Shown here one piece after another: positions 17,862-29,284 of a stretch of 37,435 nucleotides of DNA. Source of the DNA: Acholeplasmataceae bacterium (GTDB taxonomy: Bacteria; Bacillota_I; Bacilli_A; Izemoplasmatales; Hujiaoplasmataceae); assembly GCA_012515085.1 (NCBI GenBank), contig JAAYZB010000206.1:1-37435 (forward strand), read 5' to 3'. The notes below the pieces were generated by a model. The model was not told the origin of the DNA. It made no database searches and saw nothing but the letters and a program-made list of their open reading frames with translations. Positions within the stretch are counted from its first letter, which is position 1. The number at the start of each line of letters is the position of its first letter. Made by a program: the position numbers and the translations under genes.

Positions 17862-18557
17862 GTGATGGTTTTCCTTGTTAATATCGGCGAACTCAACTGG
17901 ACATTGATCATTATTTTGGCAGTGGGTTTTATTGCCTTGATGATTTTTTTAGCAATCATGATCAATAAAGGAAAATATGCCGCCCGGTATAAACGTTTTT
18001 ACAAAAAAATGGACCGAATGATCACTAAAAAATATAACGGTAACCTGCTGAATGAAGTATTGATCAACTCGCAGATGAAAGATGAGCGAAACATGTACAA
18101 GTCGCTCAAAGGCAAGGGTAAGCGATTAGTTAGAAAGTATTTTGATTACTACACTAAAAATCTTCCTGAACTCGCATTTCTAAAAAGTTTCATCAGTTCA
18201 GACAAGAAAAAAGGGCAATTGGTAATCTTGTTTTTGAATGAATTGGACAAAGTCATTTTCCGCTGGGACAAGTCAAAAAAGATGCGGGGATTCATCAAGT
18301 CTGTCAATAAATACCAGATGCTTACGCCCCTAATTGGCTATTTGTATGAACTTCCGCTCCATATTCATGAAGGAGTACCTTACCGGATGACCAATCACGA
18401 TAACGGATTAATCCTCTCTTATGACATCGTGAAAAGTGCCAAACATATCAAACGGAAACAAAAACCCAAAAAATTGTCGAAAAAAGAACTAAAAGCGCAA
18501 GAACGGGTTCAATCCACCAAACTGAAAAAAAGTCAAAAGGCCTCAAAAAAAGCATAA
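17862..18557 (+). CDS. Uncharacterised membrane-anchored protein with basic C-terminal tail
   Basis: 231 aa (GTG 17862 or ATG 17865); N-terminal TM (WTLIIILAVGFIALMIFLAIMI), soluble domain, Lys-rich tail KRKQKPKKLSKKELKAQ; GAGGTGAG RBS. Confidence 0.75.
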   Translation: MMVFLVNIGELNWTLIIILAVGFIALMIFLAIMINKGKYAARYKRFYKKMDRMITKKYNGNLLNEVLINSQMKDERNMYKSLKGKGKRLVRKYFDYYTKNLPELAFLKSFISSDKKKGQLVILFLNELDKVIFRWDKSKKMRGFIKSVNKYQMLTPLIGYLYELPLHIHEGVPYRMTNHDNGLILSYDIVKSAKHIKRKQKPKKLSKKELKAQERVQSTKLKKSQKASKKA

Positions 18558-19954: not shown

Positions 19955-19986
19955 AAAAAAATAACCGATCAAATCGGTTATTTTTA
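19955..19986 (-). terminator. Terminator of padR-jetABC operon
   Basis: AAAAATAACCGAT-TTG-ATCGGTTATTTTTTTT on minus strand. Confidence 0.8.
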
Positions 19987-19993
19987 AAGCACC

Positions 19994-22900
19994 TTAGTCT
20001 TTTTGCACTACTTCATATGCCCGAGCCGCTTTGCCTTCTCGTAAGGTTACAACGGTCGTATCGGTATACTTACTCAAGACTTCCATTTTTTGTGGAGGGG
20101 TTGCCAAAACGATCTGCACTGGCAAGCACTGGATAAACTCCATCATCGACTTGATTCGTGAAGTATCCATTTTATCGAATACTTCGTCAAACAAGATCAA
20201 TCCGATGGCATCATGCATGACACCTCTTTGGGCTTGTTGGAAGACGCGGACAAAGGAAGCCAAGGTTGCCACATAGAAGGGTACTTGGGTTTCTCCTCCG
20301 GACTTCTCTTTGAAAACCTTGGAGTAAAGGATGACATCTCCTTGGGCATTTTTGATCTTAATATCGTAATCCATATAAGTTCGATAATCGGTGAACTTAT
20401 TCATCGAGCCTTGGTCATTCAATCCTTCGCTCGCCAGATTGATAAATAATTCTTCTAACTGTCTTTGGTATTTCATCTCAAATTCAACATTGAAGATTTC
20501 GGAACCGCTCTTCATGGACTCATCCGAAAGTACCATATCATAATAATCTCCATATTCATGACTCTTCGGAAAGATGAATTCATAAGTATCATCACCAAAA
20601 TGAATCGTGGACAACGTATCATTGATCTTTTTGATTTCTTCTTGTGCTGTCACGATATAGTTACGTAGCTTAGCCATAAAGTCTTCTTTGAACAATTTCT
20701 CCGCTGCTTCGCGCGCTTCACGTACTCTCGCTTCGTATTTCACCAATTCCGATTTTACTAATTTGTTCAACTCATTCAGATACAGATCAACATATTCCAA
20801 ACCATATTGATACGATAAATTATACGTGTTTGTAAATTTGAATTGCTTTGATTTCAAAGCGTCCTCAAGACTTGCTAGGTTTTCCAGTTCGGTTTGAATG
20901 CGACTGAAATATTCCTCCTGAACTTTTTTCTGATCGCTGGCATTGGCGATTTCCTGACGGAATAACTCGCGGGCGTCTTTTTCCATTGTGAGATTATCTT
21001 GACCCTGTTTTACCAAGTCGTCATTCAAGCTGGATATACGTTGTTCCAGCGTGAGGATGTCCTCTTGATATCGCAAGTGATCCGCTTGTAATTTCCCGTT
21101 CTCTTCATAGAGCTTCCGACGATTTGCTTGATATCCCCGAATTTCCTCTTTGATATTTTCGTATTCCAAGCGAATCTGGTTCAAGTTTTCTTTCGGCATG
21201 TTCTGTTTCTTAAGAACCAGCGACTTGCGTTTTTCTTTTAAGCTTGGCAACTCAATTGAGGATTGCAACATACCGACAAGAGACATGATTCCAAGACTGG
21301 CAATCGCGCTGTTTTCTTCTTGGAGTGCTTGAATCCGATTTGAGAGCAGTTGATATTGATCTTTATCTTGTTTCGCTTGTTTCCGCCATTTGTCTAACTG
21401 TTCTTCATAAGCTCGTTTGCCGATGAATGGTTTTTCTGTGTTTTTGTTGAGGCTTCTCACCGTGAAAGAACGATAGACCATCCCTGACTGTGTGATCGCC
21501 TGGGGAAATTTTTCTAGATCGGTCACTTCATCGACCATGATCAGATTCCCCACCAGCATGTTGATATAGTGCTCCGCATCCACGTTGTCAGTCTGGATGA
21601 TCCTCGCTAACGATTGTTCTTGTGATTTGGTGAAATGCATGATTTTCTTGGTGTTGACCAGCCCAATTCCGTAGATGTTAAAATTGTCTTTGATCTTATT
21701 GTATACTTGCAACGCCTCATCAAAGTACCGTGGTTCGACAATCAGATTGAAACGTTGTTGTCCCAAATAATCTTCAACTGTGTTGTGCCAATTTCGATCA
21801 GTCACTTCAAGCAATTCGCCTAATATATGGACGCTAATATCCGCCCCGTATCGATTTTTCAAGCTTTCTTCGATAGCGCTTTGCAGTTTTCGAATCATCG
21901 GATTGTATCGAAGTTGATGATTCTCCAGTTCTTTAAGTGTTTGGTACACTTCATTGATCTCGATAACCAGTCGGTTGCGCTCCTCTTCCACTTTCCCCAG
22001 TTCTTTTTGATTTTCTTCCAGGGTTTGCTGAAGACGCTTGTCGATATCGATCAAGGATAACTTAATCTTATCAAACTTGTCGGGTTCTATATTGTTTAAT
22101 TCCACTTTGGCCAATTCGTCATAGATCGGCTTTTTAGTTTCGGTTTTCAACTCAGCCACGATTGGTTTGAATTTTTCAAGCCGACGGTTATAATACCTTC
22201 GTATTTCTTCTTGCTGATCGATCGTCTGATTCAGGCTTATGATTTCCTTATCATAAATCTCACCCGCTTTAAACGTATCGTCGCTTTGTAATAACGCATA
22301 TATTTCCTTGCTTCTTTCATCTAATAGATCAAGTTGGTGATCGATATCAACCAGTAGTTTTTGGTTTTTCTCCTTGCCAATGGAAATCTTATCCAGCTGA
22401 CGATTCTTTTTGCGGATTTCCTCTTTGGCGGTTTCTACTTCGATCAATTTCAAAAAATATTCATAGAACGTTTTGCGATCTTGATTTTTCTTGATATCAT
22501 CGTACAGATCCTTGATTTCCTGAAGGCTTCCAATTTTTAGTTTTATGATTTTGAGCGTTGCCTCAAGATCACGGTAAGATTGAATCGACTCGCGAATGGA
22601 TGCCACGTCCAGCGTTTTTTCTTCTAATAAGTAATGATAGATGAAGTCTTTGACATCCGCAATGGGCTTGAAGGCAAGTGCTTTTGGCAACAATGAGAAA
22701 TAGGTCTCGTTTATGGAGCCAAATTTCGAACGATAGGCTAGTTTTGCTTCGCGTCGAGTTGGATACACCTTGTCCGCCAATTTTGCTTTTTTAAACATCA
22801 ACGTTGTGCGGATTCGACCTTCTTCATCAATAAAAAGTGTTTCTGTAATTCGACCTTCTAACTCATAAAAGAGCACTTTGGGTGGCAGCACTTCGCCAAA

Positions 22901-23236
22901 AGCATCGATGATAGCGCCCACCGTGAAAAACAGGTCTTTCGACTCGTCATAAAATTCAAGTGAAACATGTCCGGTGACATCGCCCTCACGTAAATATTCT
23001 TGATTGTCAATCCCCAGTTTGCACTTGACATATCCTCTTAAATCCCGCTTGCTCTTTTCGTTGGCCGCTAAATTGAATATTTGATCTCCTGCGGTGATCA
23101 CGAAAGCGATCGCATCGACAATAGTCGATTTCCCTGTCGCATTCTGTCCGGTAATCAATGTGTTGTTTTTTATATAAATCGTCTCATTTGCAAAGTAATG
23201 CCAGTTAATCAGTCGAACTTTGGTCAGTTTCTTCAT
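19994..23236 (-). CDS. jetC: JetC-like SMC/MukB/MksB-type ATPase (Wadjet family)
   Basis: About 1080 aa; Walker A GQNATGKSTIVDAIAF, long coiled coil, signature KSGGETQVPFYVATLASF, Walker B IGLILFDEVFDKMD; start MKKLTKV at 23236 has AGGAGGT RBS (track start at 23254 less likely). Confidence 0.9.
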   Translation of the reverse strand: MKKLTKVRLINWHYFANETIYIKNNTLITGQNATGKSTIVDAIAFVITAGDQIFNLAANEKSKRDLRGYVKCKLGIDNQEYLREGDVTGHVSLEFYDESKDLFFTVGAIIDAFGEVLPPKVLFYELEGRITETLFIDEEGRIRTTLMFKKAKLADKVYPTRREAKLAYRSKFGSINETYFSLLPKALAFKPIADVKDFIYHYLLEEKTLDVASIRESIQSYRDLEATLKIIKLKIGSLQEIKDLYDDIKKNQDRKTFYEYFLKLIEVETAKEEIRKKNRQLDKISIGKEKNQKLLVDIDHQLDLLDERSKEIYALLQSDDTFKAGEIYDKEIISLNQTIDQQEEIRRYYNRRLEKFKPIVAELKTETKKPIYDELAKVELNNIEPDKFDKIKLSLIDIDKRLQQTLEENQKELGKVEEERNRLVIEINEVYQTLKELENHQLRYNPMIRKLQSAIEESLKNRYGADISVHILGELLEVTDRNWHNTVEDYLGQQRFNLIVEPRYFDEALQVYNKIKDNFNIYGIGLVNTKKIMHFTKSQEQSLARIIQTDNVDAEHYINMLVGNLIMVDEVTDLEKFPQAITQSGMVYRSFTVRSLNKNTEKPFIGKRAYEEQLDKWRKQAKQDKDQYQLLSNRIQALQEENSAIASLGIMSLVGMLQSSIELPSLKEKRKSLVLKKQNMPKENLNQIRLEYENIKEEIRGYQANRRKLYEENGKLQADHLRYQEDILTLEQRISSLNDDLVKQGQDNLTMEKDARELFRQEIANASDQKKVQEEYFSRIQTELENLASLEDALKSKQFKFTNTYNLSYQYGLEYVDLYLNELNKLVKSELVKYEARVREAREAAEKLFKEDFMAKLRNYIVTAQEEIKKINDTLSTIHFGDDTYEFIFPKSHEYGDYYDMVLSDESMKSGSEIFNVEFEMKYQRQLEELFINLASEGLNDQGSMNKFTDYRTYMDYDIKIKNAQGDVILYSKVFKEKSGGETQVPFYVATLASFVRVFQQAQRGVMHDAIGLILFDEVFDKMDTSRIKSMMEFIQCLPVQIVLATPPQKMEVLSKYTDTTVVTLREGKAARAYEVVQKD

Positions 23237-23828
23237 CGGATATACCTCCTTCATTACCGGTTATCTTACCGATCAAATCATAGATGTCATTGATTTGATG
23301 CGTATTGATGGCCATCAAAATCGTGGGATAGATGATGACTTTAGTATTGCTTTGGGTGATGTCTCCCATCGGTTCGATCAGATTGTATTTTCGATACAAT
23401 CGAAGAATCGCGACCAAATCCGTTTTGTTAATTTTTCTCTTTTTGATTTCTAAAGCGTCATATTTCTGATGAATCTCATCAACGCGGATCACCACATTGT
23501 CATTGATGGATGTTTCGACGAGGTGCTGATGATATAGGATTCTCAAAATCAGGAGTACGATCGATTCATCACGTTTAAGGCGCAAGAGGTTTCGATTTTC
23601 CCGACTCAATAATTGAATGGCTCCTTGCTCACGATCGAGAACAATATCATAATTGATGACCGCAAAATATTCATCAAAATATTGCTTGAAACTAAGTAAG
23701 AAATAATATTGTTCTTTGTTGTCTCGTTTATCTCTCGCCAAAAACCCGGTTGCCAATAGCTTATTGCTAGTATCGCTGAACAGTTGTTTTTGTCCTTGTG
23801 ATAAATTTTCAAAATTCTCCAAGATCAT
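23205..23828 (-). CDS. jetB: JetB-like (DUF4194, MksE-type) winged-helix subunit
   Basis: 207 aa between jetA and jetC; DUF4194-like sequence (LLSRENRNLLRLKRDESIVLLILRILYHQH); ATGA overlap with jetA. Confidence 0.82.
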   Translation of the reverse strand: MILENFENLSQGQKQLFSDTSNKLLATGFLARDKRDNKEQYYFLLSFKQYFDEYFAVINYDIVLDREQGAIQLLSRENRNLLRLKRDESIVLLILRILYHQHLVETSINDNVVIRVDEIHQKYDALEIKKRKINKTDLVAILRLYRKYNLIEPMGDITQSNTKVIIYPTILMAINTHQINDIYDLIGKITGNEGGISDEETDQSSTD

Positions 23829-25219
23829 AAGTCATACCCCCTAATGATTTCGAAATCGGCAAGTCGGAATTTATGATGTTCAATGTCTGTCCTGAGTGGA
23901 ATAATTGAGTAGTCGAGTTCGTCTCCTGCATAAATCAAAATATATAATAGCCTCATGATCGCTTCATCGCTCATATCCGATCGAAGTATCTCCGACGCTT
24001 TGATTGATGATCGTGTTTTAAAATACTCCATCAAATACTTTTTGATGACATCGGTACTATAGTTTGACTCAAACTCCTTATAGAACTCTTCCTGAAGCCG
24101 ATTGGACGGTGTATCCTCATTTGCAGCCAAGAACTGCTCTTTACTGCGGATATATGCGCCTCTTGGCGTATAGATGGACGAATTGGCAATCTGATTGTTT
24201 TGTTGGAACAAGAATAAGGGTTGAATTTGTTTCAGCGCTTGTTCTGTTTTCTTGCTCTTCACTTTGTTCGCGACAAATTTCAAGATTCGATTCAATTTCC
24301 CGATGATGTTTTCATCATCGTTGAGTAAGAATTTGATTTTGGCAATCGTGGTATTGACATATATTTTATTTTTATTATCAATTTCGCTAATAATCCAGTC
24401 GAGCGAATTATAGATATCGATCATATCATCCAGTTTTTTGTTTGCTTTGACTTTGGCTAGTTCATAATTATTGTTTGCTTTTAATAAATATTCTCGGGCA
24501 ATGGTCTCCATGATCACTGGATTTTGTTGGTACAGCTCCAACCGTTTAATGATTTCCAGTTTATATTTATGGACATTATCCGATGTCTTCAGTCGATAAT
24601 AAGCCTGATCAACCAACTCGACCTTATAATTGACCAACAAATGTATGAGATCGCGAATTTCCGAATTTTCAATTATCGATCGGATATAAAATTTCAATCT
24701 TGAATCCAATTTACGGATCTCGCGAACAAACGCAATAGTATTTTTATATACTTGATCGATGACCATCGCGTATTCAACGTGCTCATTCATCAGAAGCGAA
24801 TAAGCGGTGAAAATGTACCCGCGGAACTCATGATTTTCATCATCGTATCCATATAAATTATCTTGAGTGACTGAGCGTAGTGCTTCAATGATCGTGATGG
24901 CATAATCACGGAAATTGAGCACTTCGACGTAATCGTTGTTCACGTCAATATCCACCCATTCGCACTCTTCAAATCGCCGGAGTATTTGATTTGCTTTATC
25001 GCGATTTGTGGCTTCTACGTCGATATCATCCACTTCGGAATGCGGATGCATTTCCAAGTAGTCGATCACAACTTGTTGAGCTACTTGCTTGTCCATCCCC
25101 AGAATCGACCCTTGCTCGTAAGCCTTGAAGACTTCAAACAAAGCGTTCACATATAGATTTTGATTTTTTCCCGATAGCAGGTTGAAGAAGTTGGTCGGGA
25201 TAATTTCGAACAATTCCAT
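23825..25219 (-). CDS. jetA: JetA-like (MksF-type kleisin) subunit of Wadjet system
   Basis: N-terminus MELFEIIPTNFFNLLSGKNQNLYVNALFEVFKAYEQGS typical of the JetA/DUF5716 family; the first 33 aa of the track ORF overlap padR, so start moved to 25219 (GGGGAG RBS). Confidence 0.85.
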   Translation of the reverse strand: MELFEIIPTNFFNLLSGKNQNLYVNALFEVFKAYEQGSILGMDKQVAQQVVIDYLEMHPHSEVDDIDVEATNRDKANQILRRFEECEWVDIDVNNDYVEVLNFRDYAITIIEALRSVTQDNLYGYDDENHEFRGYIFTAYSLLMNEHVEYAMVIDQVYKNTIAFVREIRKLDSRLKFYIRSIIENSEIRDLIHLLVNYKVELVDQAYYRLKTSDNVHKYKLEIIKRLELYQQNPVIMETIAREYLLKANNNYELAKVKANKKLDDMIDIYNSLDWIISEIDNKNKIYVNTTIAKIKFLLNDDENIIGKLNRILKFVANKVKSKKTEQALKQIQPLFLFQQNNQIANSSIYTPRGAYIRSKEQFLAANEDTPSNRLQEEFYKEFESNYSTDVIKKYLMEYFKTRSSIKASEILRSDMSDEAIMRLLYILIYAGDELDYSIIPLRTDIEHHKFRLADFEIIRGYDL

Positions 25220-25232
25220 AGGCTTTCTCCCC

Positions 25233-25583
25233 TTATTCCTCTCGTAAGTATTCGAATGTGCCGCCGACCAGATTCGCCAAGGTGTTTTCGATCTGAATCC
25301 AATCCTTGCGGAAATCATGCAAGGCCTGTTTGCCCTCGGAAGTGATTTGATAATAACGCCGGCTCATCCCTTTTTTGTTTTTTTCCTTATAAGAAGAAAT
25401 TTTCCCATCTTCCAACAATCGTTTCAAAGCAAAATACAGCGTTGCCTCCGTTAATTGGAAGTGTTCATCGCTGACTTGTTCGATAATCTTGCTCATTTCA
25501 TAACCATAACTGTCAAACTTGGCTAGAATCGACAAGATGATATAGTCGGTGAAACCGCGGACATACTCGCCGGAATTCGTCAT
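25233..25583 (-). CDS. PadR-family transcriptional regulator
   Basis: 116 aa; FTDYIILSILAKFDSYGYEMSKIIEQ...LTEATLYFALKRLLEDGKISSYKEKNKKGMSRRYYQITSEGKQAL, canonical PadR wHTH; 13 nt upstream of jetA. Confidence 0.93.
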   Translation of the reverse strand: MTNSGEYVRGFTDYIILSILAKFDSYGYEMSKIIEQVSDEHFQLTEATLYFALKRLLEDGKISSYKEKNKKGMSRRYYQITSEGKQALHDFRKDWIQIENTLANLVGGTFEYLREE

Positions 25584-25596
25584 TATCTCACCTCCT

Positions 25597-25671
25597 TTTT
25601 ATATATAACCTGATTATATATAATCGCATTATATATATTCTGATTATGCATAATCTGGTTATATTATAACA
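25597..25671. repeat. Tandem 15-bp-periodic palindromic operator-like array upstream of padR-jetABC
   Basis: Units at 25597, 25612, 25627, 25642, 25657: TTTTATATATAACC/GATTATATATAATC/CATTATATATATTC/GATTATGCATAATC/GGTTATATTATAAC; units 2 and 4 are perfect 14-bp palindromes. Confidence 0.8.
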
Positions 25672-25692
25672 GGTTACATATCCGGCAAGCAA
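25663..25692 (-). promoter_or_regulatory. Candidate sigma-A promoter of padR-jetABC
   Basis: Minus strand TTGCTT-N18-TATAAT; -10 lies in the fifth unit of the palindromic array. Confidence 0.45.
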
Positions 25693-27171: not shown

Positions 27172-28641
27172 ATGCGTGATTTACTGGGAAAATTCAAAGA
27201 AGTTTTTTTGTCGGTTTTGCCGGTTGTTTTGGTTGTGACTTTCATTCATTTTTTATATCTGCCCTTATCGTCCGCCCAATTGGGAAGGTTTTATCTGGGG
27301 GCTTTCTTGATATTTGTTGGCCTCTCGGTGTTTCTCATTGGTATTGATGTGGGAGTCACTCCGATTGGACAAATGTTTGGAAAAACAATCGCCAAATCGA
27401 AAAAAATCTGGATCATTGCGATCGGAGGATTGGTACTGGGGATTCTCATTACCATTGCCGAACCGGATCTTTTGATTGTTGCCAAACGCATCGATGAGTT
27501 GACTTTAGGTAAAATTCCCACAGCAGCAATGGTCATATCCGTTGCTGCTTTCATAGGCTTGTTTGTAGCAATAGGCTTGTTGCGAATTTTTTTCAAGATC
27601 CCGCTAATCTACGTATTCTTGGGATCTTATCTCGTTATCCTTATATTTGCTATTTTCACTCCCAAAGATTATTTAGCCATCGCTTTCGATATTTCGGGTG
27701 CCACGACCGGAGCGATGACAGTACCGTTTGTCCTTGCACTGGCAGTAGGGGTATCCGCCATGCAGCGTTATGGTAAAAGCGCTGAAAAAGATAGTTTTGG
27801 TCTCATTGGGCTTGCATCAGCGGGTGCGATCATCAGTGTATTTGTTCTCGTTGCCATTCTCCGACCATCCGTCAATGGATTGATTGATTTGGAAGCGCCT
27901 GCTTCACATGGCTTTCTCGATGTTGCTTGGGAATCCTTTATCGCTTTAGCTCCGGTCTTTGGACTGGGAATATTGGGAAACCTCTTCATCTTCAAACTCA
28001 AACGACGAGTATTTCGTCGCTATATACTTGGTTTCATTTACACATACATCGGCCTGACGCTCTTTTTATTTGGCGTCTACTCTGGTTTTCTTGATTTGGG
28101 ACTCTATCTCGGTGAAAGCTTGGCTCAGAGCCCGATCATGATTTTACTCGTGATTGGTTTTCTCCTGGGAGTCTTTGCCATTTTGGCTGAGCCGGCGGTC
28201 TATGTTCTTACTGAACAAGTCAATGAAGTCACCGCTGGTTATGTATCCAAAAAATTGGTTGTGATCTCCCTTGCCCTCGGTGTGGGCTCTGCGTTGGTAT
28301 TCAACATCATTCGCACTCGCGTGGAATCATTCGAATTATGGTATCTTTTATTGCCAGGCTATCTTCTCGCAATCGGAATGATGTTTGTTACTCCCAAAAT
28401 GTTTATCGGAATGGCCTTTGATGCCGGCGGTGTTGCATCCGGTCCGATCTCCGCAACATTCATCTTTGCGTTTTCGCAAGGAATTGCAACTCATTCGGGC
28501 ACTCAATTGCCCCTTGGAGATGCATTTGGTATGATTGCCTTGATTGCCATGACCCCGATCATCATGATCCAAGGTCTGGGTATCCTCTATAAAATCAAAG
28601 CCAGAAAGAAGGTGATCGACGATGTTTCAAACGGGAAATAA
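27172..28641 (+). CDS. DUF1538 multi-pass membrane protein, internally duplicated
   Basis: 489 aa; repeated halves: ITIAEPDL..VPFVLALAVGVSAM and FAILAEPAVYVLTEQVNEVTAGY..FDAGGVASGPISATFIFAFSQG. Confidence 0.8.
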   Translation: MRDLLGKFKEVFLSVLPVVLVVTFIHFLYLPLSSAQLGRFYLGAFLIFVGLSVFLIGIDVGVTPIGQMFGKTIAKSKKIWIIAIGGLVLGILITIAEPDLLIVAKRIDELTLGKIPTAAMVISVAAFIGLFVAIGLLRIFFKIPLIYVFLGSYLVILIFAIFTPKDYLAIAFDISGATTGAMTVPFVLALAVGVSAMQRYGKSAEKDSFGLIGLASAGAIISVFVLVAILRPSVNGLIDLEAPASHGFLDVAWESFIALAPVFGLGILGNLFIFKLKRRVFRRYILGFIYTYIGLTLFLFGVYSGFLDLGLYLGESLAQSPIMILLVIGFLLGVFAILAEPAVYVLTEQVNEVTAGYVSKKLVVISLALGVGSALVFNIIRTRVESFELWYLLLPGYLLAIGMMFVTPKMFIGMAFDAGGVASGPISATFIFAFSQGIATHSGTQLPLGDAFGMIALIAMTPIIMIQGLGILYKIKARKKVIDDVSNGK

Positions 28642-29284
28642 TTTGATTCTTTGTGTGGCGATCGTCGCTCAAGGGAAGGCAAAACAGGTCATCCATTTTG
28701 CAAAAGAGTTTGGCGTTCCTGGCGCAACCGTTTTCTTGGGACACGGCACATCTTCAAAAGGAATTCTTTCCTATCTCATGCTCAACAATCCACACAAGGA
28801 AATCGTTCTCATGGTCACCGATGGGTCGCGAGGTGATTATGCAATAGAACAAATAGTCCAAGCGATGCAAATAAAAAAACCAAATCACGGAATCATTTTC
28901 ACCTTACCTATCAATGCGGTGATCGGCTGTCGAAGTGTATCCGATAATCCGGAAGGGAGGAACCCCAACATGAGCAATTATCAAGCCATCTATACCATCG
29001 TGGACAAAGGAAAAGCGGAATGGGTCATCGAAGCAGCCGCCAAGGGCGGTGCTTCCGGTGGAACGGTCATCAATGCCCGAGGATCGGGCATTCATGAAAC
29101 TGAAAAAATCTTCCAAATGGCAATCGAGCCAGAAAAAGAGTTGGTTTTGATTCTCGCCAAATGCAATCTGGTCGAGGGGATATGTCAAAACATCCGCGAA
29201 GAACTCCATATTGATGACCCGGGAAAAGGCATTATCTTCGTTCAAGATGTTCGGAGTGCTTTTGGGCTGTTTGAAAAAGAATAA
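28622..29284 (+). CDS. Tandem PII-like (GlnB-related) protein
   Basis: 220 aa with two PII-like halves (NLILCVAIVAQGKAKQVIHFAKEFGVPGATVFLGHGT... and YQAIYTIVDKGKAEWVIEAAAKGGASGGTVINARG...); overlaps DUF1538 gene by 20 nt. Confidence 0.8.
   Translation: MFQTGNNLILCVAIVAQGKAKQVIHFAKEFGVPGATVFLGHGTSSKGILSYLMLNNPHKEIVLMVTDGSRGDYAIEQIVQAMQIKKPNHGIIFTLPINAVIGCRSVSDNPEGRNPNMSNYQAIYTIVDKGKAEWVIEAAAKGGASGGTVINARGSGIHETEKIFQMAIEPEKELVLILAKCNLVEGICQNIREELHIDDPGKGIIFVQDVRSAFGLFEKE

Follow-up and report, generated by a model that had tools for sequence, protein, structure and literature searches.

What does a Wadjet-type complex do once its nuclease is gone? The question is raised by the padR-jetA-jetB-jetC operon of an Acholeplasmataceae bacterium (Izemoplasmatales; GCA_012515085.1), located in the 37,435-nucleotide contig JAAYZB010000206.1, which was analysed over its whole length and is here called the window (G000:C159). 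In Wadjet, DNA shape is sensed by the JetABC core, for which loop extrusion has been proposed, and cutting is the task of JetD; MksG, which corresponds to JetD, is bound by the kleisin (PMC10586767; PMC10123090). Removal of JetD would leave a motor of the MukBEF kind. An initial annotation of the window, which reported no JetD gene beside the operon, left three options: a condensin without JetD, a defence system using another nuclease, or a JetD encoded elsewhere. Our data support the first of these, which is strengthened by the absence of Smc and ScpA from these genomes. On the evidence of gene content and inheritance, the operon probably encodes a structural maintenance of chromosomes (SMC) complex, derived from Wadjet by loss of the nuclease, that has replaced Smc-ScpAB as the main chromosome condensin of the host lineage.

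Absence of JetD and of Smc-ScpAB

The operon is real and intact, far beyond chance, and combines type I JetA, JetB and JetC. Searches placed the three window proteins in the PADLOC type I Wadjet models JetA1, JetB1 and JetC1, with essentially full-length matches for all of them. Of the label "Wadjet/MksBEF-like" first given to the locus, the MksBEF-like part is only loosely right, as the proteins score best as type I Jet subunits; the MksE profile (PF21980) reached 25.5 bits, just below the cut-off of 27. We also found the features of a condensin-type complex, namely intact ABC ATPase motifs in JetC, a kleisin fold in JetA and a KITE fold in JetB. Specifically, the Walker A (GQNATGKST), signature (KSGGE) and Walker B (LILFDE) motifs of JetC, originally described as intact, are conserved across relatives, and its solved relatives are the JetC proteins of 8as8, 8bfn and 8dk2; against the bacterial Smc profile, JetC scored 41 bits (cut-off 567 bits). 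Because a sequence search of the PDB gave no match for JetA or JetB, these two were compared by fold. The AlphaFold2 model of JetB (predicted local distance difference test, pLDDT, 83) matched MukE and Wadjet JetB structures, and that of JetA (mean pLDDT 73) matched 8as8_E (Wadjet JetABC) best and MukF next, with low template modelling scores from a model of middling confidence.

No match to JetD_C (PF09983) or DUF3322 (PF11795) was present in the operon or in the host genome, a 1.49-Mb draft in 252 contigs that is 91% complete. A search among 101 relatives found JetD_C in no genome of the family to which the window belongs (f1), of its sister family (f2) or of a third family of the same order (f3); the single-contig genomes G020 and G026 were likewise without JetD, and no jetD followed jetC in about 70 relatives. 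The method works, since JetD was detected by the same search in genomes of f9, f10, f15, f21 and f22 and, as expected, in the control genome. That JetD might have been replaced by a conserved fourth gene was considered and rejected, the gene downstream of jetC varying by lineage: in f1 it precedes mtaB and is a member of a conserved but unnamed family, in Anaeroplasmataceae it is sepF, and elsewhere it is glgC-like or another gene. The cell-division gene sepF lies directly after jetABC in about 40 Anaeroplasmataceae-type loci (for example, L118:10246-10602 and L104:10261-10596), an adjacency that links the complex to cell division. Loss of the N-terminal IFDR motif of JetB was also rejected as a mark of JetD loss, because JetD-bearing relatives here lack this motif too, making it uninformative.

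The usual bacterial condensin was missing from the same genomes. ScpA (PF02616) was found neither in the host genome nor in f1 or f2, and Smc (TIGR02168) had no match above the cut-off in f1 or f2. We then compared the two complexes over a wider range. Named genomes, when scanned, yielded 80 jetC loci, extending from metagenome-assembled genomes of Izemoplasmatales and strain zrk2 to Anaeroplasma bactoclasticum, Haloplasma, Tepidibacter and Clostridium. In seven named genomes a gene of about 400 aa came next after jetC, and those checked were JetD by Pfam; among the 43 named genomes searched for ScpA, it occurred in exactly those seven and in 0 of the 36 others. In a survey of 395 genomes of the class, 115 had JetA and 181 had ScpA, with both present in 13, JetA alone in 102 and neither in 112, an avoidance with a Fisher p of 3e-20 that is inflated by shared ancestry. 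Smc was found in exactly the 13 ScpA-bearing genomes among the 72 JetA-bearing ones tested, and JetD was absent from 94 of the 102 genomes that were JetA-positive and ScpA-negative. The other eight include G211, a plain JetABCD genome without ScpA, and the genomes G229, G421, G375 and G153, which are described below.

Inheritance of jetC and the number of events

JetC was present in 30 of 34 f1 and 6 of 7 f2 draft genomes, in a single copy each. The f1 locus, on checking its neighbourhood, proved to occupy one constant place between the dnaK-dnaJ block and the mtaB-phoH-era block, in the order hrcA-grpE-dnaK-dnaJ-(padR)-jetA-jetB-jetC-mtaB-phoH-ybeY-cdd-era with insertions in some loci, and the jet operon also adjoins dnaJ in part of f2. 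Among f1 loci, JetC identity tracked that of PhoH, Era, DnaJ, DnaK and MtaB (r 0.83-0.94; Mantel p 0.0005), and the mean JetC identity was close to that of PhoH, so that JetC diverges at housekeeping rates. Being near-universal, single-copy, syntenic and co-diverging, jetC therefore resembles a vertically inherited core gene and not a patchy defence gene; the neighbours of JetD-bearing jet copies were mostly not shared. Two loci had broken frames, jetC being split in two frames in L089 and jetA carrying in-frame stops in G032:C34, and both may reflect assembly errors in draft genomes. A check for plasmid carriage of close relatives gave only distant ones (about 21-27% identity).

As the jetABC genes are a constant part of the core genome where the usual condensin is missing, JetABC probably took over the organising of the chromosome; for cells that have no Smc-ScpAB, it is simplest to infer that JetABC does this work. 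In the mechanism that we propose, JetC dimers would be bridged by JetA, with JetB bound, and the assembled JetABC would load onto chromosomal DNA and extrude loops in an ATP-driven manner, by which sister chromosomes would be compacted and separated. Without JetD, a circle could be extruded in full with no cutting afterwards.

We also asked how often this state has arisen, using a tree of 74 JetC proteins, built quickly by maximum likelihood, which is unrooted and in which long branches make some joins unsure. Loci lacking both JetD and ScpA fell into five groups, that is, f1, f2 and f22 with two others; f9, f20, f24 and f25; f12; f5; and a divergent f9 genus, so that about five groups seem to have this state separately; gain and loss are not told apart, the tree being unrooted. 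Possible stages were seen in individual genomes. For example, G229, G421 and G375 each have two jet loci, one without JetD and one a separate JetABCD locus, and G153 has an intact JetD-less locus (L203) together with a decayed JetABCD locus (L204) in which jetA and jetD are broken. In f10, JetD-less JetABC occurs alongside Smc-ScpAB, some genomes also having a JetABCD locus, and this state is plausibly an intermediate stage. A wider proposal, to which we give about an even chance, is that Wadjet-type complexes shed JetD repeatedly, in about five lineages of one class, and became the only condensin where Smc-ScpAB was lost, with f10 preserving the intermediate.

Alternative explanations

Several observations weigh against a takeover by JetABC, the strongest counterweight being f3. 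In this family (G035, G037, G039, G041, G043, G045 and others), Smc, ScpA, JetA/JetC and an SMC-sized Walker B protein all had no match above the cut-off, apart from one Smc match in f3 that lay on a 4.6-kb contig and is probably contamination. Thus, f3 is possibly a bacterial family without any SMC condensin, suggesting that neither complex is indispensable to cells of this order; loss of Smc would then be tolerated without JetABC, and compensation would not be required. In addition, the coexistence of JetD-less JetABC and Smc-ScpAB in f10 means that JetD can be lost while Smc is kept. On the JetC tree, ScpA changed in the expected direction in 2-3 independent pairs and in the opposite direction in 0, but the sign test was not significant, because such pairs were too few. 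Most of the surveyed genomes are drafts, and the search for Smc-ScpAB covered its Smc and ScpA subunits.

Both f3 and f10, and the class genomes with neither JetA nor ScpA (112 of 395), would also fit an SMC complex with an accessory or repair role, comparable to Pseudomonas MksBEF, on a chromosome left without a main condensin after an independent loss of Smc-ScpAB by genome reduction. We regard this as unlikely, since JetABC has been kept nearly everywhere in f1, f2 and several other lineages missing Smc. To a similar degree we doubt that JetABC still acts in defence, recognising small circular DNA and either recruiting an unrelated nuclease encoded elsewhere or silencing without cutting, as has been proposed for Smc5/6. 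Such a role would agree with the closeness of every subunit to type I Wadjet and with shape sensing by JetABC alone (PMC10586767), and an unlinked partner is compatible with the sequences; however, the core-gene behaviour of jetABC is unlike that of the JetD-bearing copies, its state coincides with the absence of Smc-ScpAB, and, contrary to the suggestion of another nuclease, no partner gene is conserved across lineages. An ordinary Wadjet with its jetD split off elsewhere or lost in assembly gaps is scarcely credible: the fragmented, incomplete host assembly leaves room for it, but no f1 or f2 genome searched, G020 and G026 among them, contains a JetD, although the search readily detects one in other families. 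A JetABC complex that has become the chromosome condensin remains the reading that we prefer.

The operon in its context and among known systems

The coordinates of the operon and nearby features are collected below. The four genes are as tightly packed on the minus strand as first annotated: jetA begins at the ATG at 25219, leaving a 13-nt gap after padR, jetA and jetB share an ATGA overlap, and jetB and jetC overlap by 32 nt. The terminator noted earlier was found again as a hairpin with a U-tail, although a simple consensus terminator scan did not report it.

Features of the jet operon and its surroundings in the window
Feature	Position	Strand	Evidence or remarks
padR-jetA-jetB-jetC operon	19994-25583	minus (-)	all four genes placed as initially annotated
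padR, 116-aa PadR-family regulator, operon gene 1	25233..25583	(-)	PF03551 68 bits
jetA, 464-aa kleisin (DUF5716/JetA)	23825..25219	(-)	PF18982 245 bits; PADLOC JetA1 353 bits
jetB, 207-aa KITE subunit (DUF4194)	23205..23828	(-)	PF13835 103 bits; PADLOC JetB1 208 bits
jetC, 1080-aa SMC ATPase	19994..23236	(-)	PADLOC JetC1 977 bits; SbcC_Walker_B 80 bits
Rho-independent terminator 3' of jetC	19957..19985	(-)	hairpin + U-run, -17.7 kcal/mol, z = -5.8
Predicted promoter and operator	25600..25692	(-)	TTGCTT / TATAAT (-10 at 25663-25668), then ~three tandem TTATNTATAA-type repeats reaching the padR ribosome-binding site
231-aa protein gene between mtaB and phoH	17862-18557	(+)	kept across the family; matches no Pfam family
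DUF1538 (UmpAB-like antiporter) gene overlapping a double P-II-like gene	27172-29284	(+)	adjoins the operon

The position of padR as first gene is kept across the family, and 20 family loci have in common the -35, the -10 and a TTATNTATAA-like tandem repeat array upstream of padR, with a TTATNTATAA-type motif count of 29 compared with 1.5 on average after mononucleotide shuffling. The array is probably a PadR autoregulatory site, through which PadR would repress its own operon from over the promoter. The PadR switch suggested at the outset is thus plausible, padR and the operator-like repeats being kept across the family. The neighbours of the operon are mtaB and a gene with a weak condensation-type acyltransferase match, as described before. 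The DUF1538/P-II-like pair was also seen near the jet loci of some relatives. Among the Pfam and NCBIfam hits of the operon proteins, none was to the Muk family (MukB, MukE or MukF), and JetC is shorter than MukB.

In a literature search of limited coverage, no earlier description of such a replacement in these lineages was found. Descent of MukBEF and MksBEF from a defence system resembling Wadjet has been proposed, and the replacement of Smc-ScpAB by MukBEF and the origin of MksBEF through JetD loss are likewise published ideas (PMC10586767). A gut Hi-C study described species in which the only homologues of MksBEF were distant or no condensin was known (PMC10197239), and a four-gene Wadjet has been reported in Bulleidia (PMC12786226). 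Automated defence surveys would count loci such as the one described here as Wadjet, though they are probably housekeeping genes.

Compared with type I Wadjet, the operon has the same JetA/JetB/JetC order and domain families, and its products match the solved E. coli and P. aeruginosa JetABC by fold or sequence; it differs in that no JetD is found nearby or in the genome, in being core and syntenic rather than patchy, and in having a host without Smc and ScpA. MksBEF of P. aeruginosa is likewise a kleisin-KITE-SMC complex without a nuclease (MksG/JetD), but it works beside SMC-ScpAB, whereas neither Smc nor ScpA was found here. With Smc-ScpAB itself, the likeness is in the presumed cellular job only. 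MukBEF of enterobacteria has the same three-subunit architecture, is resembled by the JetB and JetA models in its MukE and MukF, and has also replaced Smc-ScpAB (PMC10586767); as its lineage differs, the replacement proposed here would be independent. MukBEF, however, seems to reflect one ancient event with no visible intermediates, whereas within the one class studied here the same switch has seemingly occurred several times, and living genomes, culturable species included, show both states and possible intermediates, so that the path from a plasmid-cutting machine to a chromosome organiser becomes testable.
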